Position numbers and translations under genes: made by a program. Of a stretch of DNA of 36,396 bases, positions 2,524 through 35,238 are shown piece after piece. The number at the start of each line of letters is the position of its first letter. Within the stretch, counting starts at the first letter, position 1. The stretch is from Promethearchaeota archaeon. Its GTDB lineage: Archaea; Asgardarchaeota; Lokiarchaeia; Sigyniarchaeales; SOKP01. The DNA lies in the NCBI GenBank assembly GCA_004375715.1, contig SOKP01000258.1:1-36396 (forward strand), written 5' to 3'. Under the pieces are notes generated by a model, which was not told the DNA's origin, did no database searches, and saw only the letters and a program-made list of their open reading frames with translations.

Positions 2524-3536
2524 TGAATTTTAGTAGCTTAGCGTTAGATTTACGTGAAATTGAAAAGGAATACCCTGAAAGTCCTCTAGATTATTTCAAA
2601 GAAAAAAAATTGTGTTTGTTTAATGCGTGTTTAGAAAAGTATTTTCCAGGAGTACGGTGGGGATTTCAAGATCTATTAGATGAACTTCAGTTAGAATCAA
2701 GTACGTGTATTAATCAATCTTGCTGTAGCGGTACTTTTTTTCAGAGAAATCTTATAACTCGAGCTCAATTTTCAGCAATTAACGAAAGAAACCTTAGCGA
2801 AATGAATCAACAGGCAGAAATTGCCTTTTTTAGTTGTAATGGATGCTACAATTCCCTTCTTAGAGGAAGAGATTTTTTAAAAAACGCTGAAGTAAGAGTA
2901 AAAACTCAAGATATCTTAAATTCAGTTAGTAAAAACGTTGATGGGGAGAGATACCCCGGAATGTATAATATTTTAGAAAATCCTAAGCTAAAACTGGTCC
3001 ACGATTTGGACTTTTTATATCTTATACGGAATGATGTTCTTAACACTTTAAAGTTCGATCTAAGGAACCTAAAAGTTGCTGTTCATTACGGTTGCCATTA
3101 CTTAAATCTCTCGAGGGATAAAAAAACGCTAGGTAGCTATTTAGGTAGTAAAACCAAATTTGAGGAGCTCATTGAGCTTTTTGGGGGCGTTCCTGTTGAT
3201 TACCAAGAAAGAGAGAGCTGCTGTGGCTGGGGTGCAAGTCAACTGTTAATAAATCCTCGGGAAGCTCTTAAAGTAACTTATAACAAGCTAAAAAGTGCAG
3301 AAAATGTAGGAGCGGATTTCCTTTTAATGCCATGTCCAACTTGCCTCTATACATTAAGTAAACCAGAATATAGAGATAATATCGAAAAATGGTTTGGCGA
3401 GAAGCTAGAAATTCCAACAATTCATCTTAACGAATTAATCTCCATTCTTAGGGGATGCGAAAAAGAACGTTGTATTTCTTTGACTCAAAAAACGCCTCGC
3501 CTTGAGGAAATTTTTGAGATTATTACTCAGCAGTAG
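2523..3536 (+). CDS. hdrB: HdrB-like CCG-domain protein (heterodisulfide reductase subunit B family)
   Basis: A 337-residue protein with two CCG (cysteine-rich) domains. The first has Cys31, Cys36, the pair Cys67-Cys68 and CNGC at 105-108. The second has Cys191, Cys233-Cys234 within SCCGWG, and CPTC at 271-274. In HdrB these domains bind noncubane [4Fe-4S] clusters that reduce disulfides. Both domains keep their full cysteine sets here, so catalysis is plausible. About 60 residues of extra sequence separate the domains. The start overlaps the hdrC stop by one base. The gene converges on the homocysteine operon, with only 24 bases between the two stops. The natural substrate (CoM-S-S-CoB, other thiols, or a sulfur carrier) cannot be read from sequence. 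Confidence 0.88.
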   Translation: MNFSSLALDLREIEKEYPESPLDYFKEKKLCLFNACLEKYFPGVRWGFQDLLDELQLESSTCINQSCCSGTFFQRNLITRAQFSAINERNLSEMNQQAEIAFFSCNGCYNSLLRGRDFLKNAEVRVKTQDILNSVSKNVDGERYPGMYNILENPKLKLVHDLDFLYLIRNDVLNTLKFDLRNLKVAVHYGCHYLNLSRDKKTLGSYLGSKTKFEELIELFGGVPVDYQERESCCGWGASQLLINPREALKVTYNKLKSAENVGADFLLMPCPTCLYTLSKPEYRDNIEKWFGEKLEIPTIHLNELISILRGCEKERCISLTQKTPRLEEIFEIITQQ

Positions 3537-3560: not shown

Positions 3561-3953
3561 TCACATTTCTTCGATTGCGTACCTTGGGCACGAATCTAAA
3601 CACAACAAACATCCAATACATTTCTCATAGGAGAATTCTAACTTATAATCACCGTTAAAGTATAATGCTTCGGTCGGACATAGCGAGATACAAGCTCCGC
3701 AATCTATGCAGTTATCTAATACTATAACCCGCCCTTTCTTATTAACGATTACGTTATTTTTTTTTAACGATTCTGTTATAGTTCTGATTTTATCCTCCGG
3801 AACATCTAATAATAAGTTTACTCCATTTGAACCTGTTGAGAATTTTAATATGTTGAATGTAATATCAAACTTCAAAATTTCATTGATAATTTTAGAATAG
3901 TTATTAATATCTCTAACAATTCCAAACGGTAAGGTGCAGTTAATTATAGTCAT
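3561..3953 (-). CDS. NIL-domain ferredoxin of the aspartate-semialdehyde sulfurtransferase system
   Basis: A 130-residue protein. Residues 1-75 form a NIL-type ACT-like domain, and the C-terminal half is an 8Fe ferredoxin with CIDCGACISLCP and CIGCLLCLDSCP. It overlaps the upstream DUF39-CBS gene by four bases (ATGA), so the two are co-translated. The combination matches MA1821/MA1822 of Methanosarcina acetivorans, which together make homocysteine from aspartate semialdehyde and sulfide. This subunit is thought to supply the electrons. Function is assigned by family, domain order and operon. The start is fixed by the overlap. Confidence 0.9.
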   Translation of the reverse strand: MTIINCTLPFGIVRDINNYSKIINEILKFDITFNILKFSTGSNGVNLLLDVPEDKIRTITESLKKNNVIVNKKGRVIVLDNCIDCGACISLCPTEALYFNGDYKLEFSYEKCIGCLLCLDSCPRYAIEEM

Positions 3954-5428
3954 TTTAACATCAACTCTTCCGAAGTAATAATTCCTACTACTTTTTTCTG
4001 TGCGGTTATAACAGGTAACGCTGAAATTTCATTAGTTTTCATTTTTCTTGCAGCGACATCAATAGGATCGTTGTCTGAGGTCGTAATAACTCGTTTTGTT
4101 ATAATTTCATCAAGGTCCTTCTTATCTTCAGCAATTGCTTTGGTAATATCAAAACTCGTGACAATTCCTTTAAGGATATTGTCCCTGTCAATAATAACGA
4201 TGTGATTTACATTATTCTTTATAATTTTTTCAGCAACTAACTTAATGTCACAGTCGTCGAAGCAGGTTTCTGCTTTTTTCTTCAAGTCTTTAACGAATTT
4301 TAATTCGGATGTAATTTTCATTGGTTTAAATACGGTATCAGTGGGTAACGTCTCCGCAGGCGGATTTAAGAAGAATTTTCCTTCCTTTATCCAATTCTTT
4401 AAGGTTTCCGCGATTTTTTTAGCGTGATAAAAGGATGATAAAGGAGAACATTTTACTTTTTTTCCATTCAATTCAACATAACCACTTTTCATCTCTTTAT
4501 AACTAACTTGCCTTGGTTTAGGCCGATCTCGCCTTGGAACGCCATAATCAACGACATCAGTAAGAAGTTCAGAATCAGAGATCGCAGTTTTTTTCGCCAA
4601 GCCTTCGTTCAATATTGGAATTGCTATTCCTAATCCCACAAATAAAGATGTACCATATTTCTCGTAAGATACTCCTCTTAAATATTCGGGTGTCATTTGT
4701 TTTAAATCTCCTTTAACAAACAGAGTTCCAAATCTATTCCCCGGACTGTGTTGAGTGCCTTCCCCGATAATATAACCAATCCCTCCTCCAAGGAAAATTC
4801 TTGTTCCTATCCCAATAGTTTCATAATCAGGATCGTTGCTCAAAGGACTTAACGCGCCTGCGCCCGCAAAGTGTGCGTTTCCAAACTTCGGTAATAATTT
4901 ACCCATATAAGTATAGAGTGTTTTGTCTGAACTATTGACAGCACACACATAACGTTGATACGCGTTCCTTGGATTTAGCAAGATCGCTTGATTAATCTCG
5001 TCAATCGTAAATTTCGTGTCTACTTCTGCCAAAGGATAGCAATCTGTCGTGTACGAATTTCCTCTCAATCTAATTTCCTTTCCTGAAACAAGATCTTCTA
5101 TAACATGGCCTCCACCGTATTCAAACGGTCTTATGTCTGCCATCCTGGTGCACCCAATGTAGCAATCTACAGCTGCATTTCCGTGATAGGCATGAACATC
5201 GTTTAACCATAGATGTTCGAATTTAATGGGGGGATCAGAGTGCCCGAAATTTAAAAATGCACCGCTAGAACACATAGGTCCAAAAGTTCCCGTAGTAACT
5301 ACATCAATATCTTCAGCTGCTACCCTAACTCCTCTCTCTTCCACTATTTTTACCATCTCTTCGGCCGTAACTACGACCACACTACCATTCTTAATTTTTT
5401 CGTTAATTTCACTATACGATTTAGTCAA
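3950..5428 (-). CDS. homocysteine biosynthesis protein (DUF39 plus CBS pair; L-aspartate semialdehyde sulfurtransferase)
   Basis: A 492-residue protein. Residues 1-365 are the DUF39/COG1900 domain, with PMCSSGAF around Cys53 and a second cysteine cluster near CYIGCTRM. Residues about 370-492 carry two CBS repeats. Members of this family insert sulfur into aspartate semialdehyde to make homocysteine in methanogens that lack the O-acetylhomoserine route. An N-terminal conserved Cys carries the sulfur, and Cys53 is the likely equivalent. The length and the CBS pair match the Methanosarcina type. The gene is first in a two-gene operon with the NIL-ferredoxin. A TTTATAAATA box near 5497-5506 reads correctly for this strand. 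This makes a sulfide-dependent methionine pathway likely in the host. Confidence 0.9.
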   Translation of the reverse strand: MTKSYSEINEKIKNGSVVVVTAEEMVKIVEERGVRVAAEDIDVVTTGTFGPMCSSGAFLNFGHSDPPIKFEHLWLNDVHAYHGNAAVDCYIGCTRMADIRPFEYGGGHVIEDLVSGKEIRLRGNSYTTDCYPLAEVDTKFTIDEINQAILLNPRNAYQRYVCAVNSSDKTLYTYMGKLLPKFGNAHFAGAGALSPLSNDPDYETIGIGTRIFLGGGIGYIIGEGTQHSPGNRFGTLFVKGDLKQMTPEYLRGVSYEKYGTSLFVGLGIAIPILNEGLAKKTAISDSELLTDVVDYGVPRRDRPKPRQVSYKEMKSGYVELNGKKVKCSPLSSFYHAKKIAETLKNWIKEGKFFLNPPAETLPTDTVFKPMKITSELKFVKDLKKKAETCFDDCDIKLVAEKIIKNNVNHIVIIDRDNILKGIVTSFDITKAIAEDKKDLDEIITKRVITTSDNDPIDVAARKMKTNEISALPVITAQKKVVGIITSEELMLK

Positions 5429-17611: not shown

Positions 17612-20527
17612 ATGGTTGAAAACAAAACCAGAAAGATTGAAAGAGATGAAATTATAGTATGTGGAGTATGCAATAATGCAATTCCAAAAGATTATCTTGA
17701 AAATAGTCTAGGAGGAATAAAAAATTTCTATTGTCAATATTGTGGTGTGCCATTAAACCTCACACATAATCCAATCAATAATAATGTATCTGGTAGGGAC
17801 CCTATTATCTCCACTAATACCCAAAAAGAGACAAATTTAACAAATATTAAAAAAAATGGAGAAGAAAACGATTTTGCATTGAGTTACTCAAATATAACAA
17901 ACGCTATACGAAGTTACATTTTTCAGCTGATTTACCAGTTTTTAAAAAACACTCCTTTCACCCTTAAAAAAATACAGAGTAAAAAAGAATTGAAATCTTC
18001 GCATATAAATATAATACTCAAAAAACTTTGGAAAGAATTAAAAGATTTAAATCCAAATGATTTAGCTAATCAAGAATTGGTAAGCTCAAAACGAAGAATT
18101 AAGAATTACTTTGAAGAATTTCAATCATCACTGCGACCTTATAAAAAATTTCGAAAAATTAATTTTGCTCTTTTTGCAGAAAACATTGAATTTGTTTTTG
18201 GGTTAATTTTAGGAGATTATGAATTCTCGAACCTTACAACCTCTAAAAAACGGATCGTACTTGATTTAAAAAAGAGCTTTGGATTTAAATCAGATACAGC
18301 TACAACAAATTCATTTACTTACTCCATCTCATTAGTCGTAAGTAAAATGGTTCGCAGTATACTTAATCAATATCATATAACGGAAGGGAACGATAATAAA
18401 TTAGCATTCGATGAAATAATTGGTTATGTAATTGATTATATTGTCAATAACAAAATTAAATCATCTGATTTAAGTGAATTTAACAACTCCAAAAAAAAGA
18501 AGTTTTATACTACACTGGAAAAATTAATCAAAAATGTTAAAACTGACTGGATATGTCGTAAAAGCTTTGAAGACCACATATATAAGTTGATTTTAATCGT
18601 CAATTCCTTAATAGGTGATGTAGATTATTCATCCCGTCTTTTTGGTCTTGAACGGCTTATTTTTCAAGGATTAACACAATCAGCTCTCTTTGAAAAAGAC
18701 CAGGATTTCTCTCCTCATTTTAAACTTAATTTAACTCTGATTTTATGTCGAGCTATATTCCTAAAAATAAAGAATTTCCCTGATATAACCAAATTAAACT
18801 CTCAACCCGCAAAATTGAGCATTACAGATAAAAACATAATTAAAAATTCTATTACGGACGAAATTACAGCAGGCAAGAAAATCAACTCTCAAATTTTGAA
18901 GAAGTTTTATAAGCTCTCGCTAGAAGAATTTCAAACCTACTACGAAAAATTACAAAATAAATTAGCTTCGGATTTGATTTATGTGGAGAGTTTTCGTGAG
19001 TACCTCAGTGACCTCGTAAGACTTGTGTTAAATATCGTACAATCTATTTCAAAAAAATCTCATCTTACTAAACTCGAACTCGCTGTAATAAAAGATTTAG
19101 CGAATTATAATTTTGAATGGTTTAATAAAAAACATGAAAGGACTTATTTCTATTACCCCTTACAAAATGTTCCTGATAAATCCGCTATTTATAACACTCT
19201 AGAATTAATTGAAGATTTGAAAATTGAAATACAACAATTTTCCGAAGAATTAGCGATTTTGTTTCCAGATAGGTTAATGACTGAAGTTCGTAATATATAT
19301 TCGCATGAATGGCTTTCTCAATTGTGGGGTAAAGGATGTACTTATGTTAGAAAGAGTATAATCAGGAAAGCTAAAGCTCATACAGACTTTAGAGTTAAAG
19401 AAGAAGAATTATTGCGATTGCGAGAAAAATTGGAGGAAAAATTGGGCGTAAAAACACTTGGATGTCTTAATATTATTAGAAAATATATAGGTAACGAAAT
19501 ATATACGCTTCAATTCGTGGACTTATTGGAAAAAGAGTTAGGAAGAGTTTCGGGCGAAATTAAGGTTACTGACGAAGAACTTAGCTTGATTCTTGCCGGC
19601 AATCACTCTTTTATTAAATCTATTAAAGGAAAAATTAGGAATCCCTCTCACTCCAATTACAACCCCCATTACAAATTTTCAAAAGAACGATTGTACGAAT
19701 TTAAGGACTTTCTTTTTGAAATTTTTGGAGATCGCGTTAAAAAGAGTTCCGAACTGCTTGAAAGATTCGAGCGTTTAAACCCTGATTTAAAAGAATATTC
19801 ACTACAACAATATACGATTACAGAGCCTAATTACTTTCAAAATATTAAAGAAAAAATATACGCATCTTATTGGTTTGGTTTCTTGCGCGCTGACGGCTCT
19901 CGGGCTGGAGATCCTTATAGAGTCACTTTTGCGCTCGCAGAAAAAGATAAAGATAGCGTGGAAGATTTTGCTAAAGCCGTTGGATTTCCATTGGACCGTA
20001 TTTCTCCCCGTACACGCTACCAACGGTATAAAGGGAAATTAAAAACTTACAAAAGTCTTACAGTTCAATTCAGATGTCGACCAATGGCGAAAGATATTGA
20101 CGATCTAGGATTTCAAAGCTCCAAAGCTGAACAAAAATATGTTCCAAGTTATGTAGTGGAGAGTCTCAAGGAGGCAAAAAAAATTGCAAAGCAAACAAAG
20201 GCAGGTTGGTGGCTAACTACGCCCGGTAAACTCGCTTTAGCGTTTCTACTTGGTTATTACGACGGCGATGGAGAATATCTAGGGGGTAGGACAGCAAAAA
20301 TTTATTCGTCAAGTAGGTCATTTTTAGAACACATTACAGAACTGTTCGGTATAAAAAACAAAGTTTACCCTGAAACGAAACCTGGAGAGGAAGCTTGGGC
20401 GTTTGATCGCCAATACATATCTAAAGGTTTATGGGCGGTTTATTTAGGTCCCGATGTGTTCGATATGATGATGAGTTCTTACGAAAAGAGCATGAAAAGG
20501 AAGCGCCTATTGTATTCCGCAGAGTAA
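17612..20527 (+). CDS. 971-residue zinc-ribbon protein with C-terminal LAGLIDADG endonuclease domain
   Basis: The N-terminus holds a four-cysteine zinc ribbon (CGVC near 17-20, CQYC near 39-42). Residues about 80-740 are helical, Lys/Leu/Phe-rich and unrecognised. The last 225 residues contain two LAGLIDADG-type motifs: YWFGFLRADG near 753-762 (Asp761) and LAFLLGYYDGDG near 876-887 (Asp886). Both metal-binding acidic residues are kept, so the domain could cut DNA. There is no self-splicing intein signature at its edges and the reading frame is unbroken, so it is a fusion rather than an intein. GTGAAAAAAG precedes the ATG without a strong ribosome site. It lies beside a methyltransferase and a TnpB in an accessory stretch. 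Confidence 0.72.
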   Translation: MVENKTRKIERDEIIVCGVCNNAIPKDYLENSLGGIKNFYCQYCGVPLNLTHNPINNNVSGRDPIISTNTQKETNLTNIKKNGEENDFALSYSNITNAIRSYIFQLIYQFLKNTPFTLKKIQSKKELKSSHINIILKKLWKELKDLNPNDLANQELVSSKRRIKNYFEEFQSSLRPYKKFRKINFALFAENIEFVFGLILGDYEFSNLTTSKKRIVLDLKKSFGFKSDTATTNSFTYSISLVVSKMVRSILNQYHITEGNDNKLAFDEIIGYVIDYIVNNKIKSSDLSEFNNSKKKKFYTTLEKLIKNVKTDWICRKSFEDHIYKLILIVNSLIGDVDYSSRLFGLERLIFQGLTQSALFEKDQDFSPHFKLNLTLILCRAIFLKIKNFPDITKLNSQPAKLSITDKNIIKNSITDEITAGKKINSQILKKFYKLSLEEFQTYYEKLQNKLASDLIYVESFREYLSDLVRLVLNIVQSISKKSHLTKLELAVIKDLANYNFEWFNKKHERTYFYYPLQNVPDKSAIYNTLELIEDLKIEIQQFSEELAILFPDRLMTEVRNIYSHEWLSQLWGKGCTYVRKSIIRKAKAHTDFRVKEEELLRLREKLEEKLGVKTLGCLNIIRKYIGNEIYTLQFVDLLEKELGRVSGEIKVTDEELSLILAGNHSFIKSIKGKIRNPSHSNYNPHYKFSKERLYEFKDFLFEIFGDRVKKSSELLERFERLNPDLKEYSLQQYTITEPNYFQNIKEKIYASYWFGFLRADGSRAGDPYRVTFALAEKDKDSVEDFAKAVGFPLDRISPRTRYQRYKGKLKTYKSLTVQFRCRPMAKDIDDLGFQSSKAEQKYVPSYVVESLKEAKKIAKQTKAGWWLTTPGKLALAFLLGYYDGDGEYLGGRTAKIYSSSRSFLEHITELFGIKNKVYPETKPGEEAWAFDRQYISKGLWAVYLGPDVFDMMMSSYEKSMKRKRLLYSAE

Positions 20528-25236: not shown

Positions 25237-25632
25237 TTAGATTAGTTTGTTAATCAGTAAATTTACACATAGTTTGAGTTTATCTTCGACAACTTCATAA
25301 TGTGTGAACTTTCCTTTCTTCCAACCCTTAATTAATCCCGCTTTTTCAAGAATTCTTAGATGATGAGATATTGCTGGTTGTGACTCATCCAATATTGCCT
25401 CTAATTCGCAAACGCACCTATCTTTTTTCTTTAATATACTTAAGATCAAGATACGCTTTTTATTTGCTAAAGCACTAAAAAATTCACTTAAATCATCAGC
25501 AAATTTTTCTTTTTTTAATTCTTCTCTTAGAACGCTTAATTGGCTAAAGAATGCATCAACATTAGTCACATCTTCGCATTTACTTAAAGTTGCTTTTAAT
25601 TCATTCTCACGTTTAATATTCAGATCTGTCAC
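25237..25632 (-). CDS. arsR: ArsR-family transcriptional regulator
   Basis: A 131-residue winged-helix protein starting at GTG. Residues 45-110 form the ArsR fold: FFSALANKKRILILSILKK, then RCVCEL at the start of the alpha-3 region with Cys-x-Cys, the recognition helix SQPAISHHLRILEKAGL, and the wing GKFTHYEV. The paired cysteines resemble the ELCVCDL metalloid site of classical ArsR. The N-terminal 40 residues are an extra helix. It is divergent from the QueG-like gene, whose promoter region carries a probable operator at 25688-25722 that recurs before acr3. It most likely represses these genes until arsenite or antimonite binds. Confidence 0.87.
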   Translation of the reverse strand: MTDLNIKRENELKATLSKCEDVTNVDAFFSQLSVLREELKKEKFADDLSEFFSALANKKRILILSILKKKDRCVCELEAILDESQPAISHHLRILEKAGLIKGWKKGKFTHYEVVEDKLKLCVNLLINKLI

Positions 25633-25813: not shown

Positions 25814-26644
25814 ATGGTAATTACAAATCAAAGTGTTAAAGAAAAATCGAAAGCGCTAACTGCAAGAGTTGTTGGAATCGCCTCTGTTGATCGGTGGAAA
25901 GAAGCTCCTGTGACTGTTCAACCAGAAACAGTTTTACCAGGAGCTAAAAGTGTGATTGTATTTGGAGTACCGATACCAAGAGGTATGGTTGAGACAATAC
26001 CTGGCCATCTTTGGTCTAGGGAACATGGACATCTAATGGGGGGAAAAGTTGATGAAATATCGACTGAACTCGCATACTGGCTTGAAGATGAGGGTTTTAA
26101 ATCTTGCCCAATAGGGGGTTTATCAATGCCCAAAGATGTATACTATACCATTTCAAAAGCTTTAGGAGGGGTTCCATATGATGACTTCGAGTTCTATAAA
26201 CCAGGTGGAATTGCTCTTAACATGGCAGGTGCAGCCGCTGGCATTGGTACACTTGGAAAAAGCGGAAACTTGCTTGTTCCGAAGTATGGTCCCAATATTA
26301 TTCTTGGATGAGTCGTCACAACGGCAGAGATTGAACCAGATCCGATAATGGATTATGAACTCTGTACTGATTGTGATGATTGCATTGGAAGGTGCCCAGG
26401 TGATGCAATTTCTGTAGACGGAGAAGCAGGAAAACCGATCTTTGATCCCGTAAAATGTTGGCTCATGAATGCTGTTGAAGGTCGTACGTTAAAAAAAGCA
26501 ATGGATGCAGGAGATACCGCTGTCAGTGAATATCTTACGAAGACTATATTTATGCAATCAGAAGCAACTCCTGCTACATGTATATGCGGAGATGGTTGCT
26601 TGACATCATGTCCAGTTGACAATAGGATCAAGAAACTCAAATAA
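25814..26644 (+). CDS. QueG-like double [4Fe-4S] protein with one in-frame TGA (possible selenoprotein)
   Basis: From ATG 25814 the frame runs 165 codons to a TGA at 26309-26311, then continues in the same frame for 110 codons to TAA at 26644. Protein similarity runs straight through the TGA: NLLVPKYGPNIILG, TGA, then VVTTAEIEPDP. That junction is the standard G-x-VVT-x-A-x-LEPD segment of QueG/reductive-dehalogenase-like iron-sulfur proteins. The second half carries CTDCDDCIGRCP and CICGDGCLTSCP, a double-cluster site. There is no frameshift or deletion. Either TGA is read through as selenocysteine (residue 166), or one base change has broken the gene. No clear SECIS element was found. It lies between arsR and acr3 and shares an operator with acr3. 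Confidence 0.75.
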
Positions 26645-26936: not shown

Positions 26937-27998
26937 ATGAGTGAAAAAGAGAAAAAGTTAGGTATCTTCGAGAAGTTTCTTCCCATATGGATTGCTTTAT
27001 GTATTGTGTTTGGAATTCTGCTTTCTCAGGTGGTCCCTGGCATAAGTGAGGCTATCAATGCTTTACAAATGGGCGGGATCTCAATACCTATTGGCATATG
27101 TTTATTTCTAATGATGTATCCTGCGATGTTGAATCTCCAAGCTTCAGAATTGAAAAAATTGGGGAAAAATCCCAAACCAATTATACTAACTCTTGTTTCA
27201 AATTGGATCGTTGCGCCAATTGTTGGTTTAGCGATGGCACGCATATTTTTACAAGGAAATGAGCAATTAATAGTAGCAATTATTCTTCTTTCAAGTTCAC
27301 CGTGTACAGCTATGGTTTTAGTTTGGGGATGGCTCGCGAAGGGAAACCAAGAGCAAAATGTGGTTAATACAAGTCTAAATACGGTTACCATTATTTTTTT
27401 ATATGTTCCACTTGTAACAATATTGACTGGGATTCAAAATATTCCCATTAATTGGGTTCTTCTACTAATATCTTTATTTTATTTTATTGGTCTTCCCTTA
27501 ATATTCGGTATGATTACGAAAAGAATAATTATTGCTAGAAGAGGTGAAACTTGGTTTAAAGATACTTACATCCCTTTAGTTGGGAAAATTTCTATAGTTG
27601 CCCTATTGACAACATTAGTAGTATTATTTTCTCTGAATGGAACTGCGTTAATAAACAATCCTAGTCTATTATTACTTGTATCCGTCCCACTTCTATTGGG
27701 TTTTGTAGTCGTATTGGTTTACAATATTCTACTAACTAAAATTTTTAAACTGAAATATCGGCAAGCCATAATCACAGTTATTATTGGGTCATCCAGCCAC
27801 TTCGAGATTGCAATTGCAACTGCTATAGCATTATATGGGATTGGTTCAATAGCTGCTTTAGGAACCACTATGGGATTATTCTGGGAAGTTCCAGTAATGT
27901 TAGCAATGGTGTATTTAGGAAGATATCTTGGTAAAATTGGGTTCTGGAAAGATTATAATGAAGCAAATGAAGTCTATGGAAAACGGAATAATAAATAA
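26937..27998 (+). CDS. acr3: arsenite efflux transporter, Acr3 family
   Basis: A 353-residue protein with ten hydrophobic segments and all Acr3 hallmarks: LPIWIALCIVFGILL at the N-terminus, LFLMMYPAMLNL, a helix with SSSPCTAMVLVWGWLAKGN (the essential Cys of Acr3), and SSSHFEIAIATAIALYG near the C-terminus. Acr3 exports arsenite, and sometimes antimonite, driven by proton motive force. The upstream operator shared with the QueG-like gene, and the ArsR gene 1.3 kb to the left, support arsenic-induced expression. There is no arsenate reductase or ArsA ATPase in the window. Confidence 0.93.
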   Translation: MSEKEKKLGIFEKFLPIWIALCIVFGILLSQVVPGISEAINALQMGGISIPIGICLFLMMYPAMLNLQASELKKLGKNPKPIILTLVSNWIVAPIVGLAMARIFLQGNEQLIVAIILLSSSPCTAMVLVWGWLAKGNQEQNVVNTSLNTVTIIFLYVPLVTILTGIQNIPINWVLLLISLFYFIGLPLIFGMITKRIIIARRGETWFKDTYIPLVGKISIVALLTTLVVLFSLNGTALINNPSLLLLVSVPLLLGFVVVLVYNILLTKIFKLKYRQAIITVIIGSSSHFEIAIATAIALYGIGSIAALGTTMGLFWEVPVMLAMVYLGRYLGKIGFWKDYNEANEVYGKRNNK

Positions 27999-28701: not shown

Positions 28702-29178
28702 TTAATTTTCATTAAATTTATCAATGTTAAGACCTTGTTTCTTTAATTTTTGAAGAACAAACTCAAGAACCTTTCTTATATCCTCCTCTTTAATTTCGCT
28801 TAATTTTGGGAGATTTTTAAAAGTATTGAGATCATTTAAATTCATACGTTGCTTAGGGATGACATCTTGTACTGAAATAATCAAATCTGGTACAATATCA
28901 AGGTGTTTATATATCACACTTGTACAGGCTGTGTTACATCCATTAATAATAATAATAAAGGAATGTTCGAGATGATTTTTAGTGATTTCAACTAATTTTT
29001 CTTTTTCTAATAATACATTTTTAAGAAAAATAGTAGAGCACGTCATCGAACTAATAGAAGCTATTTTACTTTTCTCTGCTAATCGTATTGCGACCTGTCG
29101 TGCTAATTCACCGTGGTATTCTGAACCTGAACATGGTATTAAAACGATATTTTCTGCCTTGATTTCTTTCTTACTCAA
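28702..29178 (-). CDS. DGC-domain putative zinc-binding protein
   Basis: A 158-residue member of the DGC family, named for an Asp-Gly-Cys motif. It has LIPCSGSEYHGELARQVA near residues 12-29, a Cys in SMTCST, and IIINGCNTACTSVIY near 78-92, where Asn replaces the usual Asp of IDGC. DGC proteins bind zinc through these cysteines; their physiological role is poorly known, though they occur near sulfur, thiol and metalloid genes. It is the last gene of a minus-strand operon behind arsR2 and the CxC protein, and one base separates it from the latter's stop. Three more family members lie on the divergent operon. Confidence 0.8.
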   Translation of the reverse strand: MSKKEIKAENIVLIPCSGSEYHGELARQVAIRLAEKSKIASISSMTCSTIFLKNVLLEKEKLVEITKNHLEHSFIIIINGCNTACTSVIYKHLDIVPDLIISVQDVIPKQRMNLNDLNTFKNLPKLSEIKEEDIRKVLEFVLQKLKKQGLNIDKFNEN

Positions 29179-29179
29179 A

Positions 29180-29473
29180 TTAAATCAAACCTTTTGCCTT
29201 CAATATTTCTGGTAGCTTTTTCTTCAGAGCAAATGAGGTCTTAACGATCTCAGTCCCATCAATAACTACACTATTACCGTGCAAATTCAATCTTCTTGCT
29301 TCTTCAGAATCCAAATTTTTTGTATTGTATAATATATACTTATTATAATGTGTAATTACTTGAAAAACGAGATTCATAAAGTTCTCCCATTGACAAGCGC
29401 ATACATTTAAAGGCACATAAATATCTACTTTAACTTTGTTTTCTTTTTTAAGTTCACTTTCTTGTTGAAACAT
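29180..29473 (-). CDS. thioredoxin-fold-like protein with a CxC motif
   Basis: A 97-residue soluble protein. The segment VDIYVPLNVCACQWENFMN puts Cys25 and Cys27 at the end of the first strand, where thioredoxin-like proteins have CxxC. A strand-turn near NLHGNSVVIDGTEI resembles the later part of that fold. CxC redox centres occur in some thiol oxidoreductases and metal-binding proteins. The gene lies between arsR2 and a DGC gene in a tight operon, suggesting thiol exchange with a DGC protein or handling of a metalloid. The fold assignment is from visual similarity only. Confidence 0.6.
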   Translation of the reverse strand: MFQQESELKKENKVKVDIYVPLNVCACQWENFMNLVFQVITHYNKYILYNTKNLDSEEARRLNLHGNSVVIDGTEIVKTSFALKKKLPEILKAKGLI

Positions 29474-29488
29474 TTAACCACCTTCACT

Positions 29489-29824
29489 TTATATTTTTTG
29501 TTGGAGTTCTACAATTTTTTTAAATCTTTCATTTCTTTTAATTAAATTATCTACTACAGCTAATAACTTGAAAATTTGTGTATCTTTTACTTTAAACAAT
29601 TTTTTATTTCCATCCCTCCTACTTTCAAGGATACCCGCTTGAGTAAGAGTTTTTAAGTGTCTAGATAATGTAGATTGAGTTTTATCAAACACTTTTTCAA
29701 TGTCGCAAACACAAATCTCATTTCCATGCCTTAGAAATTCTAGAAGTTTTAATCTAGTTTCATCTGAAAGAGCTTTTAATAAATCCAATCTTAAGTTTTC
29801 AAGTTTCATATTTGTTCTATGCAT
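29489..29824 (-). CDS. ArsR-family regulator 2
   Basis: A 111-residue winged-helix protein with LLKALSDETRLKLLEFLRHG, then EICVCDIEKV (Cys-x-Cys metalloid motif) and the recognition helix STLSRHLKTLTQAGIL. It is only about 30% like the first ArsR of the island by eye, so it is not a recent duplicate. It starts at ATG 29824; ATG 29809 is also possible. It heads the minus-strand operon with the CxC and DGC proteins and faces the HdrA-like operon across a 120-base promoter region. It probably controls both, in response to a metal, metalloid or sulfur species. Confidence 0.88.
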   Translation of the reverse strand: MHRTNMKLENLRLDLLKALSDETRLKLLEFLRHGNEICVCDIEKVFDKTQSTLSRHLKTLTQAGILESRRDGNKKLFKVKDTQIFKLLAVVDNLIKRNERFKKIVELQQKI

Positions 29825-29944
29825 TTATGCGTAGTAATACATATATTTATAAACGAATTTACTATTTAAATCTTGTGTTATTAATACATTAAATTAAATT
29901 AAAATTGAGATAAAAAAACGAGATTATTGAATGGTGTTATTAAA

Positions 29945-30331
29945 TTGAGCAATGCAAAAAAATCAGTTGGATTCATCATGTGTGTTTGTACTGGAAAATG
30001 CCCTGGATTTGCCAAAATGGATATATGGGATTTTATTAATCGTGTAAGAATTGAACTTCCTGTAGAATATGGATTTATTCATCCTCAATTGTGTGAAGAA
30101 GATGGCGATAGATTTTTAGATGATTATTTACGCTCTGGTCGAAAATATATGGTGGCTGGATGTGCTCCAAACATGCAATATAAGTTATTCAGGGACGCCT
30201 TTAAAAAGGCAGGATTAGATGTTAAAACAGATTTGATTCCCTTGGATATTCGCGAAATGACTACAGATGAAGCTGTTGATTTAGTTGAAAAAACATTAGG
30301 AAATTTAGAGGAAGATGTTAAAAATGAGTAA
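29945..30331 (+). CDS. stand-alone HdrA N-terminal-like domain
   Basis: From TTG 29945, with GGTG eight bases upstream, the protein has 128 residues; a TTG at 29927 would add six. The pattern matches the segment that precedes the FAD domain in HdrA/QmoA-type proteins: KSVGFIMCVCTGKCPG (Cys-x-Cys then Cys), then IHPQLCEEDGDRFLDDYL, then MVAGCAPNMQYKLFRDAF-KKAGLD and IREM. No flavin-binding part follows; the gene ends here and overlaps the ferredoxin gene by eight bases. It is the first gene of the plus-strand DGC operon. A stand-alone copy implies it docks onto other subunits, such as the ferredoxin next to it, as an electron or sulfur relay. Confidence 0.65.
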   Translation: MSNAKKSVGFIMCVCTGKCPGFAKMDIWDFINRVRIELPVEYGFIHPQLCEEDGDRFLDDYLRSGRKYMVAGCAPNMQYKLFRDAFKKAGLDVKTDLIPLDIREMTTDEAVDLVEKTLGNLEEDVKNE

Positions 30332-30632
30332 GATTTATGACGCTGAAAAAGAAACATTTATGGGAGTTCCAAGAAAAAGAATTCCCTGGTGGCCAACAAT
30401 AGATTATGATAAATGCAACTTTTGTATGGATTGTGATAAATTCTGTCCACATAATGTATTTGCAAAGATTGATGATGAAAAACAACAATTAATAGTTAAA
30501 AATCCATACAATTGTGTTGTATTTTGTCGAGCATGTGCGAAAACTTGCGCTCCTGATGCATTAGAATTCCCTGAAAAAAGTGAAACATCAAAATTAATCA
30601 AAAAATTAAGATCTGAATCTTTAGGTGATTGA
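30324..30632 (+). CDS. two-cluster ferredoxin
   Basis: About 102 residues from ATG 30324. An N-terminal PRKRIPWWPTIDYDKC leads into CNFCMDCDKFCP, and a second CVVFCRACAKTCAPD completes two [4Fe-4S] sites (the second with CxxxCxxC spacing). The start codon overlaps the end of the HdrA-like gene, so both are co-translated. It ends with TGA at 30630-30632, in the same frame as the DGC-H gene that follows, only one codon away. The expected role is electron transfer to or from the HdrA-like domain and the DGC proteins. Confidence 0.82.
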   Translation: MSKIYDAEKETFMGVPRKRIPWWPTIDYDKCNFCMDCDKFCPHNVFAKIDDEKQQLIVKNPYNCVVFCRACAKTCAPDALEFPEKSETSKLIKKLRSESLGD

Positions 30633-30635
30633 AAA

Positions 30636-31532
30636 CTGGAAAAGAAGAAAACTTGTATTTTACCTTGTAACGGTTTGGATAAATCTTTAGGGGTGATTGC
30701 TAGAAGCATAGCTCTTAAATTAATTGAAAAACGGCCTGAAATACAATTAATTTGTCCTGTTTTGCTTAATACTGGTGATGAAAAATATGAAAATTTCATA
30801 GAATCTGCAAAGATTATTGCTATTGATGGTTGTATGACTAGATGTGCAACTAAATTAGTTGAGAATAGAGAAAAAAAGCCTTTTAAACGAATATTTATTC
30901 CTGATATGTCTAAAAAATATGGTATTAAACCTACTAAAGAACTTACATTAAACGAGGAAAATGAAAAACTTGCTGAGCAAATTATGGAAGAAATTATTAA
31001 AGAACTCGAGGATGTTGATGTGAAAAAGGTATTAAAAAGTCCGAAATTTGAAGCTATAGAATTTTTTGACATTACTGTTGATAAATACCATTTTAATGTA
31101 CCTAAAGAAGGATATTACTTTAATGAAAATGATTATTGGATTAAACCGGAAGGAAAAACAGCATTATTAGGTATTTCAGATTATCTACAAAATGCTGCAG
31201 CGGATATATTATTTGTAGAGTTTCCAGAAATTGGTAGTGAAATGGAACAGTTTGATGATGCAGGAAGTTTTGAATCTAGTAAAACAGTATTACAATTAAT
31301 ATCTCCCGGAACTGGTAAAACTATTAGAGTAAATAAAGCATTAGAGAACAATCCAGAATTAATGAATCAAGATCCTTACCAAAAGGGGTGGTTTATCGAA
31401 ATAGAATTGAAAAATTTTGAAGAAGATAAAGAACTATTACTGAATGGACCAGATTACTTTGAATATATGAAAGAGAAAATTATGAAAGAAAAGAATGCGT
31501 TAGAACAAATAAGAAGTGAGAAGGATGTCTGA
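30636..31532 (+). CDS. DGC domain fused to a GcvH-like lipoyl-carrier domain
   Basis: A protein of 298 residues from a CTG start at 30636. AGGTGA lies seven bases before that CTG. The next TTG (30675) would remove the conserved CILPCNG, so CTG is most likely. Residues 1-120 are a DGC domain: CILPCNG (Cys7, Cys11) and IDGCMTRC (Cys66, Cys70). Residues about 155-280 are a glycine-cleavage H-protein fold: YYFNENDYWIKPEG, LLGISDYLQNAAADILFVEF, PEIGSE, then ESSK where Lys216 is the expected lipoylation site, PGTGKTIRVN, and NPELMNQDPYQKGW. No glycine-cleavage genes are nearby. Lipoate-binding proteins of this fold serve the sHdr sulfur-oxidising system, which fits the Hdr-like and Dsr/Tus neighbours. 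Confidence 0.83.
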   Translation: MEKKKTCILPCNGLDKSLGVIARSIALKLIEKRPEIQLICPVLLNTGDEKYENFIESAKIIAIDGCMTRCATKLVENREKKPFKRIFIPDMSKKYGIKPTKELTLNEENEKLAEQIMEEIIKELEDVDVKKVLKSPKFEAIEFFDITVDKYHFNVPKEGYYFNENDYWIKPEGKTALLGISDYLQNAAADILFVEFPEIGSEMEQFDDAGSFESSKTVLQLISPGTGKTIRVNKALENNPELMNQDPYQKGWFIEIELKNFEEDKELLLNGPDYFEYMKEKIMKEKNALEQIRSEKDV

Positions 31533-31932
31533 AAAAAAAGTGTTTATTATCCCTTGTAGCGGAATTGGCAAGGTATTTGGAAGTATTAGTAGAAAAACTG
31601 CCTATATATTAGTGAATGAATTAGCAAAAGGTAAAACTGCTTTAGAATGTTTACCCTTGATAGTAAAAGGTAAAAAGGAGATAATTCAAGCGTTAAAAGA
31701 AAATAAAGTTATTGCTATAGATGGTTGTCCATTGAAGTGTTCCTATAACGATTTAATAGAGGCAGTAGGGAAAGTTGATGCTCAATTTATGACTACTGAA
31801 ATTGTAAAAGAAAATAGGGATTTAAAGCCAGAGTCTTCAATAATCCCCATTGGAGAAAATACTAAGGCGTTATCACGAAAATTAGCAGAAAAAATTGCTT
31901 TAAAAATTGATGAACTATTAGAAGAAAACTAA
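31525..31932 (+). CDS. DGC-domain putative zinc-binding protein (third of the set)
   Basis: 135 residues from ATG 31525, which overlaps the DGC-H stop by eight bases. Features are FIIPCSGIGKVFGSISRKTAY, then LECLPLIVKG, then IAIDGCPLKCSYN, with the classical Asp-Gly-Cys intact. A final segment near EKIALKIDELLEE is helical. This is the canonical DGC form and by sequence probably the zinc-binding member closest to the family consensus. It is co-translated with the DGC-H fusion, so the two probably act together, perhaps as a heteromer. Confidence 0.84.
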   Translation: MSEKKVFIIPCSGIGKVFGSISRKTAYILVNELAKGKTALECLPLIVKGKKEIIQALKENKVIAIDGCPLKCSYNDLIEAVGKVDAQFMTTEIVKENRDLKPESSIIPIGENTKALSRKLAEKIALKIDELLEEN

Positions 31933-31947
31933 GAGGTAGTAAAATAA

Positions 31948-32367
31948 ATGAAAAAAAAAGTAGGTATTATTGCTTGTAGTGGTGAAAGTTTAATAGGTGG
32001 CACTTTAAGCCGCGCTGCTGCAAGAATCGTGGTTGAAAAACTAAGACCAAATCAAACAATCATTTTATGCCAACCTTTATTTATGGCCGGAAATCTAGAA
32101 AAGCACGGTGGGCAAGAAGAAAGAGACTTTGCAAAGAACCATCCAACAATTACTATAGAAGGATGCGAGGAAGAATGTGCAAAAATCGCAGTTAACAGAT
32201 ACAGTGGAACACCCAAAGCTACAATATACATCCAAGAGTATATTGATGCTCATCCCGAAGTAAAAACAAACTCTCGAGAAAAGCTAGGAGAAGAGGGGAT
32301 AAATCTTGCGGAAATTATTGCCGAGGATATAGCAAAGAAAGTTGATGAGCTTTATAGAACGAAATAA
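31948..32367 (+). CDS. DGC-domain putative zinc-binding protein (fourth of the set)
   Basis: A 139-residue protein starting at ATG, with GAGGT nine bases upstream. It has GIIACSGESLIGGTLSRAAA near the N-terminus, a Cys in TIILCQPLFMAG, and TIEGCEEECAK, where Glu replaces the Asp of the DGC motif. The C-terminal helix AEIIAEDIAKKVDELY is the part whose DNA recurs at 36137-36250. It is the last gene of the plus-strand operon, and a 444-base gap follows to the DsrH-like gene. Confidence 0.83.
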   Translation: MKKKVGIIACSGESLIGGTLSRAAARIVVEKLRPNQTIILCQPLFMAGNLEKHGGQEERDFAKNHPTITIEGCEEECAKIAVNRYSGTPKATIYIQEYIDAHPEVKTNSREKLGEEGINLAEIIAEDIAKKVDELYRTK

Positions 32368-32419
32368 ACATTTGTTCCTAATTTTCATAAAATTTTATAA
32401 AAAATTTAATTAAAATGTT
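32306..32419 (+). repeat. source copy of a duplicated DGC-gene tail
   Basis: The last 20 codons of the DGC gene and about 50 bases of its 3' flank. A copy of about 85-90% identity lies at 36137-36250. The shared part includes GCGGAAATTATTGC, ATATAGCAAAGAAAG, TTGATGAGCT and CATTTGTTCCTAATTTT. Similarity ends near 32419. Confidence 0.7.
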
Positions 32420-32442
32420 TTGGGCATACTTGTGATAAGGAA

Positions 32443-32580
32443 GTGTCCGGGATCATTCACATTCTTGCTTTTATAGATTGTATCGATCTTGAGAAAGCTT
32501 CCATTTTTGATAATGAGTTGCAAGAATTTATTGAAAATTTGAATCAGGAATACAAAAATAAGACTGAAATGAAAAAGTAG
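32443..32580 (+). CDS. possible 45-residue protein or gene remnant
   Basis: A GTG-started frame (VSGIIHILAFIDCIDLEKA, then a charged, helical rest) of 45 codons, with AAGGAA just before the start. The N-terminal hydrophobic/cysteine part and helical tail look protein-like, but no family is recognised. It may be the decayed end of a former operon gene. Confidence 0.3.
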   Translation: MSGIIHILAFIDCIDLEKASIFDNELQEFIENLNQEYKNKTEMKK

Positions 32581-32811: not shown

Positions 32812-33120
32812 TTACATATTTATTATTGAATCATTCTCAAAAATTAAATCAATCACATCATCAGTGGCAACTAATTTAATTTTGTCTGAAATGAAATTAG
32901 ATAATCCTCGGATTTCTATGTGTTCTTCACATGCAGCAACTTTTTTGTTTTGATTGAGAGCTTGTGAAACAGCTTTATTAGATTTATTTGCAAAATAGAC
33001 TGCATTTTGAAGTAAAAGAATTGTTACATCGTCTTCTTCAGTATGCTCCATAGCAAGTTCTACACCTGTAATATCTTCACTTGTTATAAAATATAACACT
33101 TTTTTGCTCACTTTTATCAA
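32812..33120 (-). CDS. dsrH: DsrH/TusB-like sulfur-relay protein
   Basis: A 102-residue protein. ILLLQNAVYFANKS (about 33-46) matches the DsrH/TusB hallmark LLQDAVY, and IEIRGLS (about 68-74) is the second conserved block. A cysteine in VAACEEH, between them, is the only cysteine and may be the functional residue. In DsrEFH, DsrH pairs with DsrF and DsrE in a hexamer that passes persulfide sulfur between TusA and downstream enzymes. It is the last gene of the operon and is separated from the DsrF-like gene by five bases. Confidence 0.75.
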   Translation of the reverse strand: MIKVSKKVLYFITSEDITGVELAMEHTEEDDVTILLLQNAVYFANKSNKAVSQALNQNKKVAACEEHIEIRGLSNFISDKIKLVATDDVIDLIFENDSIINM

Positions 33121-33125
33121 TCCTC

Positions 33126-33470
33126 CTAAAATGGTATCGCAACGGTTGAATCTTCAATCATTTTTAATATTTCGCCATGTTCTTTTACTTCAACTTGATC
33201 GATTAAATCATTCTTTGTAAGCCCCCGTTCATTAAGAGCCTTCCTATCTACATAAATGTCAAGATCTATATCTTTTATGAAATCTATGTGCATAGAATAC
33301 ATTGTTTTATCTACATCCTTAAGAAAGGCATAGACACCATCATTTATAGCAACAGTTATCGGCTCAAAATCACCACTAAGAGCAACAGTCATTCTTAAAC
33401 CTTCAACAGGATAAAGCGTCCCGTGAGGAGGTTGCCGTAAAAGAATAACAACATTTTTTTCTTCTGACAT
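33126..33470 (-). CDS. dsrF: DsrF/TusC-like sulfur-relay protein
   Basis: A 114-residue protein of the DsrE/F fold. VVILLRQPPHGTLYPVEGLR (about 7-26) and VAINDGVYAFLKDVD (about 41-55) are characteristic of DsrF/TusC. It has no cysteine; DsrF proteins are structural partners and do not always carry one. It sits between the DsrE- and DsrH-like genes with short spacers, as in classical dsrEFH operons. Confidence 0.78.
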   Translation of the reverse strand: MSEEKNVVILLRQPPHGTLYPVEGLRMTVALSGDFEPITVAINDGVYAFLKDVDKTMYSMHIDFIKDIDLDIYVDRKALNERGLTKNDLIDQVEVKEHGEILKMIEDSTVAIPF

Positions 33471-33481
33471 TTTTTATCACC

Positions 33482-33844
33482 TTAACAAATTACTACGAGT
33501 CTATCAGTTTCTTCTATAATTTTCGCAAGATCGGGAGTTCCTGCTCGTTTCACATCGCCACATTCCTTTTTTAGACAATATTTCATGGTTCCCCTAACTA
33601 AAAGACAGAGGTTGCATAATCTTACCGTGGCGCCCTTATTCAGGATTTCTTTAAAACCTTCTTCAATGTTAACTATCCCTTCGATTTTTTTCTGATTTTC
33701 TAAAAGTGCATTCACCGCATCCATGTAGCAAAAAACACGTACTTCATGCCCTTTATCTAATGCGGCATTAGCTAACCTAACCACAGTTTCAGGGGCTTGT
33801 TTTTGATATGGACCACTAAAAAAAAGAATTCCTAATCGAGACAT
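33482..33844 (-). CDS. dsrE: DsrE-family sulfur-transfer protein
   Basis: A 120-residue protein. It starts LGILFFSGPYQKQAPETVV as in DsrE/TusD proteins and has VFCYMDAVNALL near 38-49. It carries NLCLLVRG at about 78-85, where the Cys is in the position of the DsrE persulfide cysteine. Two more cysteines in YCLKKECGD and a C-terminal Cys (VVIC end) are unusual and could bind metal or form extra persulfides. It lies between the YeeE-like transporter gene and the DsrF gene. Confidence 0.83.
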   Translation of the reverse strand: MSRLGILFFSGPYQKQAPETVVRLANAALDKGHEVRVFCYMDAVNALLENQKKIEGIVNIEEGFKEILNKGATVRLCNLCLLVRGTMKYCLKKECGDVKRAGTPDLAKIIEETDRLVVIC

Positions 33845-33869
33845 CTCTTTTTATCAACTCAATCTCATA

Positions 33870-34934
33870 TTAATCTTTTCTCCACATAAAAAGTAGATAA
33901 GCCATCAACCAACAACCGAGGATAATGAATGCACCTGATAATAAGCTTCCGAGAGAGAGAAGTGGAAAACCACTTAAAATATTTCCTATATTGCATCCCA
34001 TTGCTGTTATCGCTCCAAATCCCATCGCTAATCCTCCAATAAATTGAATCACGATAGTTTTTGCATGTTTAGGGGTTCTCAACTTGAATTCTTTAGCAAT
34101 AATCGCACTGATAAAAGCACCAATAACAATCCCTATTACTAACCAAGTTTCCCAACCTAATGCTGAATCAACTCCAGTATTCCAAAATTTATTCCAGCCT
34201 ACCCAACCGCCTGTAATTCCTAAAGGGTAATTTCGGCCAGCTGCTGCAGAAGAAACATACGCAAAGCATGCTACTATACCAATTGCAATTGCAGTCACAG
34301 CCCAATGCCATCCTTGTTTAAAAGTCTTATGTCCAAAGTTGGAAAAATCAAATAAGGGTTTATTTTCTCTTTTTTTTGCTCGCAATTCGCGCCATATCCA
34401 AAAATAACCAATTATAACAATTCCTACGATGCCGATGATTAACATAAATATTGGTGTGAGATCTCCAAAAAGTGTAAGTGCACTTCCATCTGGGTTTGTA
34501 ATTTTTGTGTTATCTTGTAAAGTTTTAGCTATAGGGTTAAGTACTCCAAACTTCGTAAAATATGCACCACCTGCAAACCCTAATAAAGCAATGAATGAAC
34601 CCATCATGCCTTCTCCTACTCGATATGTAGTTCCACTCGCGCATCCAGCTGCTAAGACCATTCCGATTCCAAAAATCAAACCTCCGACAATGTTACCACC
34701 CCATGCAAATTGCTTAGGATTTAAGGTAATTATTCCCGCAAATGACATTATTGAAAAACCTAACATTGACACAAGTATTGTTAGTGCTACTGATTTTGCT
34801 AATTTGAACTCTTTTAATAATATAATATCTCTAAAAGCAGAATTCATGCAAAACCGTCCTCGTTGTAATATAAATCCAAAAATAATTCCTAAAATTAATC
34901 CAGGAATTAACACAACAACTATATCTATTGCCAT
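33870..34934 (-). CDS. YeeE/YedE-family sulfur-compound transporter (TsuA-like)
   Basis: A 354-residue membrane protein with about nine helices. It contains the three cysteine motifs of the thiosulfate transporter TsuA: GRFCMNSAFRD near 26-36, AAGCASGTTYRVGEG near 90-104, and MGCNIGNILSG near 315-325. YeeE/TsuA moves thiosulfate through a line of conserved cysteines. Family members next to TusA or selenium genes may move other sulfur or selenium species. AGGTGAAAAGG sits right before the ATG. It is second in the operon after TusA, a common pairing, and probably feeds it. Confidence 0.87.
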   Translation of the reverse strand: MAIDIVVVLIPGLILGIIFGFILQRGRFCMNSAFRDIILLKEFKLAKSVALTILVSMLGFSIMSFAGIITLNPKQFAWGGNIVGGLIFGIGMVLAAGCASGTTYRVGEGMMGSFIALLGFAGGAYFTKFGVLNPIAKTLQDNTKITNPDGSALTLFGDLTPIFMLIIGIVGIVIIGYFWIWRELRAKKRENKPLFDFSNFGHKTFKQGWHWAVTAIAIGIVACFAYVSSAAAGRNYPLGITGGWVGWNKFWNTGVDSALGWETWLVIGIVIGAFISAIIAKEFKLRTPKHAKTIVIQFIGGLAMGFGAITAMGCNIGNILSGFPLLSLGSLLSGAFIILGCWLMAYLLFMWRKD

Positions 34935-34947
34935 TTTTCCTTTTCAC

Positions 34948-35181
34948 CTATTTTATTTGAACTACTATTTTCCATTCAGAAACTCCAACTTTATCAATTG
35001 AAAGAACTTCATTTCCCATTGATTTCATTGTTTCAGGAATTCTTTCTGCTGAAAGAGGATAGTCTATCAAGATTTCTAAAATTTCTCCTGAATTCATTTT
35101 TTTAGCTTTCCTCTTACTTTTTACATCTGGATAGGGACATACTTCCCCTCTACAATCTAATTTATCTGTAACATCAACCAT
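34948..35181 (-). CDS. tusA: TusA/SirA-family sulfur carrier
   Basis: 77 residues from ATG 35181; a GTG at 35193 would add four lysine-rich residues. DKLDCRGEVCPYPDVKSKR holds the CPxP motif, whose Cys (Cys15 from this ATG) carries the persulfide, plus an extra Cys five residues before it. The beta-alpha-beta-alpha-beta-beta length matches TusA. TusA next to YeeE and DsrEFH marks a sulfur import and relay unit. It is the first gene of the minus-strand operon, with a dyad and TATA box upstream at 35239-35274. Confidence 0.85.
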   Translation of the reverse strand: MVDVTDKLDCRGEVCPYPDVKSKRKAKKMNSGEILEILIDYPLSAERIPETMKSMGNEVLSIDKVGVSEWKIVVQIK

Positions 35182-35238
35182 TTTTTTTTTCACTTTTTTA
35201 TCAATTTTAAGTTACATTTTGTAATAGATACGAATAAA

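Follow-up and report, generated by a model that had tools for sequence, protein, structure and literature searches.

Lipoate is known mainly as a cofactor of carbon metabolism and as a target of arsenite. A role in sulfur oxidation has been known since 2018, in which the lipoyl protein LbpA of the sHdr-LbpA system serves this process (PMC6067878). Here, a five-gene cassette is described in a DNA stretch of 36,396 nucleotides (hereafter, the window), contig SOKP01000258.1 of the Promethearchaeota archaeon assembly GCA_004375715.1 (Lokiarchaeia, Sigyniarchaeales). The genes encode an HdrA N-terminal-like domain (HdrAN), a ferredoxin (Fd), a DGC domain protein fused to a GcvH-like lipoyl domain (DGC-H) and two further DGC proteins (DGC2 and DGC3). 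Comparisons of sequences, gene neighbourhoods and predicted structures make it very probable that the cassette is an arsenic-linked lipoyl redox module.

In logic, sHdr-LbpA is the nearest system. Both feature a GcvH-like lipoyl protein outside carbon metabolism, an HdrA-type partner and a gene for LplA (lipoate ligase) near by. Further common points are an ArsR-family regulator (PMC10451225) and a gene for dihydrolipoamide dehydrogenase, which in sulfur-oxidising archaea is located close to the sHdr-LbpA genes (PMC6067878). In the cassette, however, the lipoyl protein is fused to DGC, the neighbours are arsenic genes and the ArsR carries a CxC motif. The sHdr gene set hdrC1B1A-hyp-hdrC2B2 is represented in the window cassette by no more than the HdrA N-domain, next to a ferredoxin; HdrB and HdrC were looked for in the window alone. 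LbpA is described as having two strictly conserved cysteines near its ends, absent from some archaeal LbpA (PMC6067878), and neither is present in the window H domain.

GcvH shares the lipoyl-domain fold and the lysine of the ESxK motif with DGC-H, which differs in the DGC domain in front and in scoring below the TIGR00527 cut-off (107.9 vs. 115.85 bits). DGC-H is also below the cut-off of NF045810, a GcvH-related protein (40.4 vs. 150 bits), and a separate H-like frame of 131 residues is located on contig C137 of the same genome. GcvP and GcvT were not noticed among the recurring neighbour clusters of the cassette, although no dedicated profile search was made for them. Arsenic resistance operons (ArsR, ACR3, ArsC, ArsA, ArsE/F/G-type) share the neighbourhood, the regulator type and ACR3 efflux with the cassette, and no such operon with a lipoyl carrier, an HdrA-N domain or DGC proteins was found among the literature matches listed. 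These matches also contain no description of the gene set or of a lipoyl-arsenic-Hdr link, although a description could be missed; a first-pass annotation, made from the window sequence alone, likewise knew of no described pathway with this set.

The five genes occupy positions 29945-32367 of the plus strand with successive gaps of -17, +3, -5 and +15 bases, in agreement with the overlapping or very short spacers reported by that annotation. Its assignment of three DGC proteins, one with a lipoyl domain, was borne out by Pfam matches of all three to DGC and of DGC-H to GCV_H, and the divergent group of a fourth DGC gene, arsR and a CxC protein was located at 28702-29824 of the minus strand.

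DGC-H matches the Pfam families DGC (E 3e-18) and GCV_H (E 1e-30). The model predicted for the fusion has a predicted local distance difference test score (pLDDT) of 88.8, and its H half matches solved H-proteins with a template modelling (TM) score of ~0.9 by target length, among them 3klr (E 1.6e-14, TM 0.94 by target). The position corresponding to window Lys216 is a lysine in 81 of 81 aligned fusions (taken from 121 open reading frames of the DGC-H class after deduplication and selection for a length of 270-345 residues), within ESxK in 80 and ETTK in one. Fold and conservation identify Lys216, as anticipated in the first-pass annotation together with the lipoyl-type fold, as the lipoyl acceptor position, and DGC-H is presumably lipoylated there. 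In the window protein, cysteines occur only at positions 7, 11, 40, 66 and 70, with none in the H domain; across the 81 fusion rows, one H-domain cysteine column reaches 64%. The first conserved cysteine is present only if the CTG codon is the start. The same CTG is found in the 86% identical copy L039, and locus L042 has an ATG at this position. Four Bathyarchaeota loci (L129, L130, L134 and L147) encode DGC and H in two neighbouring genes; the fusion therefore unites parts that can also function unfused.

HdrAN alone gave no Pfam match at E <= 1. When 14 relatives were combined in a profile, HdrA chains of known structure were matched in their N-terminal domain (7bkb at 3e-4, 9sfi at 0.057 and 5odc at 0.51), with the match spanning HdrA residues ~4-93 only. 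With 128 residues, the protein has no room for the flavin part, whose absence the first-pass annotation had noted. The CxC...C...C pattern of HdrA is retained and is joined by one extra invariant cysteine; all five cysteines are conserved at 100% (91 aligned). HdrAN differs from HdrA in standing alone, without the FAD/thioredoxin-reductase and ferredoxin domains. Its mean column identity is 65% in alignment A1 (14 Asgard rows) vs. 46, 42 and 49% in A2, A3 and A6, which represent other, wider samples than A1; across these unlike samples, HdrAN is the best-conserved protein of the cassette. The eight cluster cysteines of Fd are present at 98-100% (74 aligned), and these, with the Fer4 match, agree with the proposed 8Fe ferredoxin.

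To our knowledge, the DGC family (PF08859) is uncharacterised. DGC-H, DGC2, DGC3 and DGC4, the last encoded in the divergent operon, all exceed its cut-off, with more than 27 bits each. Four cysteines are conserved at 98-100% in DGC2 (89 aligned), at 100% in DGC3 (90 aligned) and at 98-100% in DGC4, while the second conserved cysteine of DGC-H reaches 79%. The spacing in DGC2 and DGC3 is mostly C-x30-C-x25/31-C-x3-C. Conserved cysteines are evident from the alignments; the zinc sites named in the first-pass annotation, in line with the Pfam description, are putative. The predicted DGC3 model (pLDDT 89.5, predicted TM score 0.86) is an alternating beta-alpha fold in which the conserved cysteines come after the first, second and third strands, at the positions where such folds keep active sites. 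The fold bears a weak likeness to flavodoxin-like proteins, ArsH and LMW-PTP (4etm, probability 0.91, E 0.039), and a DGC profile compared with PDB sequences gave nothing better than E 0.27. A relationship of DGC to DsrE was rejected (0.4% in profile comparison). Matches to PF01451, the LMWP family, occur in 155 of 227 Asgard genomes, from which no pattern was drawn. In the small CxC protein of the divergent operon, C25 and C27 are conserved at 100% (28 aligned). This protein was also considered as TsoX of the three-selenoprotein operon, a name reportedly originating with Haft and Tolstoy in 2025, and was rejected with 12.9 bits against an NF045809 cut-off of 52.

The first-pass annotation had suggested a search for conservation of the gene set, which was carried out at two scales. 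A DGC-H search of 227 Asgard genomes gave two-domain matches in 32 genomes at 34 places, some with internal stops. These places less that of genome G165, plus three partial ones, make up 36 Asgard loci (the window and 35 further stretches), where Fd is found in 34, DGC2 in 34, DGC3 in 33, HdrAN in 31, the ArsR1-type repressor in 24, the CxC protein in 23, DUF166 in 12 and DGC4 in 10. The loci without HdrAN are L040, L041, L058 (contig ends), L059 and L062. In an HdrAN scan with one genome per species (84,980 species), the best 80 of 138 relatives were kept. All five components are present in 74 of these 80 loci, a count biased towards HdrAN by the query, and Fd is present in 79; the loci are distributed across archaea and many bacterial phyla. 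Among the six incomplete loci, four are at a contig edge, L075 has neither DGC2 nor DGC3, and L132 has a DGC3-like gene further downstream. L075, also recorded as L050, belongs to the Lokiarchaeota bin132 chromosome and looks like a decaying cassette, with a DGC-H match to residues 1-202 only, no DGC2 or DGC3 found and a short DGC4. In the acidobacterial L132 (10368-12968), a ferredoxin-like start runs into a long unrelated frame, and a second HdrAN and Fd match is near by.

The midpoint-rooted tree of 81 fusions, from which unfused and truncated loci were left out, consists of a Thorarchaeota-type group with 12 rows, an open group formed by the 19 remaining Asgard rows, and 50 rows from bacteria, which mostly cluster by phylum. 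With this pattern, the cassette looks old rather than recently spread. No HdrAN relative was found in viral contigs searched with the single window sequence or in plasmids searched with that of Clostridium ljungdahlii. Islands of ars genes collect accessory genes, and the five might be unrelated genes gathered in such an island; this is extremely improbable, being contradicted by their joint occurrence in nearly all of the 80 loci and by the mostly phylum-coherent tree.

Neighbours were counted in 81 loci (the best 80 and the window) within 10 kb of HdrAN by similarity clusters, of which the loose ones include generic relatives. ArsR is found in 53 loci, ACR3 in 37, ArsE-type thioredoxin in 32, ArsG/CcdA-type permease in 32, ArsF-type proteins in 20, a methyltransferase in 16, LMWP ArsC in 14, an SO_0444/ArsP-type permease in 6 and ArsA in 4. 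ACR3, ArsA or ArsC is present in 43 loci, and any ars-type gene in 73 (counting ArsR, ArsF-type and the loose ArsE-thioredoxin and ArsG/CcdA clusters). For 37 loci, 8 kb or more is available on either side; of these, 23 have ACR3, 25 have ACR3, ArsA or ArsC, and 29 have ArsR. Members of the ACR3 cluster match TIGR00832 at <= 1e-10 in 39 of 40 cases, which is an E threshold and not the family cut-off; the bile-acid symporter family is matched by 10 members as well. One representative per cluster was scanned, and those of Lpd (dihydrolipoyl dehydrogenase), ArsF, ArsG and ArsA exceed the NCBIfam cut-offs. In the Asgard set, an ACR3 homologue lies within 6 kb in 13 of 36 loci, that of L066 being doubtful at 23% identity. 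Fewer than one would be expected by chance, an estimate based on the one or two ACR3-family matches in most of the listed Asgard genomes of 3-4 Mb.

The nearest ArsR contains CxC in 51 of 53 loci, mostly in an ELCVCDL-like box (EICVCDI in the window), which we take to bind As(III). The CxC of L089, L109 and L132 is unlike the motif, and some of the 53 ArsR genes are nine or more genes away. These neighbourhoods argue strongly for an arsenic link of the cassette.

Fourteen of the 81 loci carry an Lpd gene no more than 10 kb from HdrAN, and such a gene stands immediately upstream of HdrAN in 11 places; the tested protein exceeds the TIGR01350 cut-off (535 vs. 408.8 bits), and the window genome has an Lpd above the cut-off on contig C275. 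LplA lies within 10 kb in 12 of 81 loci and near 3 of 36 Asgard loci; the scanned representative is under the NCBIfam cut-off, and another LplA (L068) passes Pfam.

The reading preferred here, though with somewhat less than even confidence, is a reductive one, in which arsenic species would be reduced at DGC sites by a lipoyl arm driven by ferredoxin or NADH. The redox module encoded by the cassette would be soluble and presumably sensitive to oxygen, and would serve to detoxify arsenic under anaerobic conditions. Low-potential electrons would enter via the 8Fe ferredoxin and the HdrA-N domain, a putative iron-sulfur domain; in Clostridia, NAD(P)H may also feed in via dihydrolipoyl dehydrogenase. 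The electrons would reduce the lipoyl arm on Lys216, and the arm would present its dithiol at the DGC pockets with their four cysteines. At these pockets, arsenic in an oxidised form, either arsenate or a thio- or organo-arsenical, may be reduced. The As(III) product would be exported by ACR3 and would release ArsR, switching on both divergent operons.

The main rival, which we consider fairly unlikely, is capture and hand-over of As(III), in which the lipoyl arm, as a reduced dithiol, would hold arsenite in a cyclic adduct and hand it on via DGC cysteine sites to ACR3, much as an ArsD-type chaperone would, with electrons merely keeping the thiols reduced. Lipoic acid is a known arsenite ligand (PMC10138600), which suits the reductive reading as well, and the four near-invariant cysteines of DGC2, DGC3 and DGC4 and the ACR3 and ArsR neighbours suit such a role. 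However, a chaperone would hardly need HdrA-N and ferredoxin in nearly every locus, nor a dedicated Lpd. Turnover is favoured over a passive chaperone because the electron input is near-constant (Fd in 34/36 and 79/80 loci, HdrAN the best conserved).

Several observations weigh against the reductive reading. Comparison of the DGC fold with PDB gave no match at E <= 1e-3. A relationship of DGC to LMW-PTP ArsC, considered for the weak Foldseek likeness and the cysteine positions, was rejected by hhalign (2.5% and 1.5%), as was one to the HdrB CCG domain, considered for the cysteine spacing (0.6-1.1% against PF02754; control 99.9%). HdrB-type CCG domains have 30 matches elsewhere in the window genome, so partners that were not considered may exist. 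The ArsC, ArsE, SO_0444 and methyltransferase representatives are under the NCBIfam cut-offs, and in the 14 of 81 loci with ArsC-type genes arsenate reduction would be redundant. There is no ACR3 within 10 kb in 44 of 81 loci, many of them short contigs, and no ars-type gene in 8, including L138 (~10 kb on each side) and L114 (10 and 4.8 kb). Finally, the assembly to which the window belongs (3.07 Mb, 320 contigs, 84% complete) yielded no LplA. This absence was rejected as a sign against lipoylation: every one of the other 23 genomes of the genus has an LplA match, as do 210 of the 227 Asgard genomes overall, so it is probably an assembly gap.

A sulfur function was also weighed. Genes for DsrH, DsrE, a DsrE/TusD-like protein, a TsuA-like thiosulfate transporter and a TusA/YedF-like protein are located beside the cassette on the minus strand (32812-35193). 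With TusA/DsrE partners, the lipoyl arm might carry persulfide or thiosulfate sulfur, or make and break thioarsenates, with the lipoyl LbpA of sHdr sulfur oxidation as a precedent. This version is rather improbable: within 6 kb, DsrE/DsrH are found in 4 and TsuA/TusA in 3 of the 36 Asgard loci (L058 has another TsuA/TusA pair slightly further out), and neither is among the neighbour clusters that recur in three or more of the 81 loci, so a sulfur role is less likely. In addition, the five genes include no HdrB, HdrC or full HdrA, and ArsR is of the CxC kind. Sulfane-sulfur sensors share two distant cysteines, Cys50 and Cys116 in SoxR (PMC10451225), whereas the window ArsR has only the CVC pair. 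The first-pass annotation had proposed that lipoyl-bound thiol or persulfide is carried among DGC zinc sites and the relay of Hdr-like protein and ferredoxin. Of this proposal, the relay is retained, as is a lipoyl-type carrier that adjoins the cysteine sites of DGC, but persulfide is no longer the first choice of cargo, since the recurring neighbours are arsenic genes and ArsR has only the CVC pair.

Arsenite inhibits lipoyl enzymes, and the cassette might protect or repair these or other thiol proteins under arsenic stress; alternatively, it might deal with a different thiophilic element, for instance antimony or mercury. The best NCBIfam matches of Fd, far under the cut-offs, are HgcAB-like (38 of 285 bits) and HgcB (34 of 99 bits), and the SO_0444/ArsP-type permeases, clustered from 6 of the 81 loci, point the same way. 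Yet the lipoyl domain, being encoded within the operon as a fusion with DGC, has the look of a functional component rather than a client, and ACR3 accompanies 37 of 81 loci; we regard such a function as improbable.

Features of the window are listed in Table 1. DUF166 follows DGC3 in many relatives, and the window copy is reduced to its 3' end (32419-32577). At the extreme contig end (36136-36396), the end of DGC3 and the start of DUF166 are copied, which points to a rearrangement or to faulty assembly. The same assembly contains the region once more on contig C259 (L039), with proteins 85-96% identical and a longer DUF166, as would result from a true duplication or a co-binned strain. The candidate operator block was aligned across nine intergenic stretches of the same family, and its repeats are imperfect only. 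Elsewhere, by eye, the window contains a separate Hdr-type pair (HdrC-like and HdrB-like, 1996-3536), an open reading frame of 971 residues with a zinc-ribbon-like opening and a homing-endonuclease-like end (17612-20527), and two adjacent frames that look like one iron-sulfur protein split by a frameshift or sequencing error (25814-26644). A DUF39-like protein with a CBS-like end and a small ferredoxin (3561-5428) form a pair that we take to resemble the homocysteine-forming pair of methanogens.

Table 1. Coordinates of the cassette and neighbouring features in the window.
Feature	Position	Strand	Description
HdrAN	29945..30331	+	TTG start; stand-alone HdrA N-terminal-like domain; five invariant Cys; 128 aa
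Fd	30315..30632	+	2[4Fe-4S] ferredoxin, 8 cluster Cys; Fer4_10 and Fer4 above Pfam cut-off
DGC-H	30636..31532	+	CTG start; fusion of DGC (front) and GcvH-like lipoyl domain, the latter with Lys216
DGC2	31528..31932	+	Pfam DGC E 1.4e-16; four near-invariant Cys
DGC3	31948..32367	+	Pfam DGC E 4.6e-12; C10, C41, C73, C77
DGC4	28702..29178	-	Fourth DGC protein, divergent operon; Pfam DGC E 5e-12
Small CxC protein	29180..29473	-	97 aa; thioredoxin-like by eye; C25/C27
ArsR1 repressor	29489..29824	-	Pfam HTH_5 E 8.6e-15; EICVCDI box
Divergent promoter region	29825..29944	.	AT-rich conserved block, imperfect inverted repeats; candidate ArsR operator, weak
ACR3 arsenite efflux permease	26937..27998	+	TIGR00832 286 bits, cut-off 282.8
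ArsR2, second ArsR-like regulator near ACR3	25237..25632	-	28% identity to ArsR1, 1.7e-9; CVCEL stretch by eye
DUF166 3' remnant	32419..32577	+	tblastn 90.6% over residues 184-236; PF02593 in L042 homologue

Cultured strict anaerobes, namely Clostridium ljungdahlii, Acetobacterium bakii and Sedimentibacter saalensis (L145), are among the carriers, so the cassette can be tested now. Another anaerobe, Fusibacter sp. 3D3, is reported to grow dependent on arsenate without ArrAB and to have ferredoxin genes in the arsC-1 context; the accession numbers of one of its ferredoxins, Fdx-3, and of ArsR-1 are three apart, and Fdx-3 is closest to a protein of S. saalensis, the carrier named above (PMC9751042). 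The terms 'lipo', 'zinc-binding' and 'heterodisulfide' do not occur in the main text (PMC9751042).

It is a bold and, on balance, unlikely proposal that the cassette encodes an undescribed ferredoxin-driven, lipoyl-coupled arsenic reductase, assembled from a ferredoxin, DGC cysteine proteins and a free HdrA-N domain. Archaea and bacteria would share this anaerobic enzyme widely and from early times, and it would possibly be the missing electron link to arsenate-dependent growth without ArrAB. If true, a dedicated lipoyl protein in arsenic operons would reverse the view of lipoate as an arsenite target and add a role to this cofactor, and both the DGC family (PF08859) and free HdrA-N domains would gain a function.

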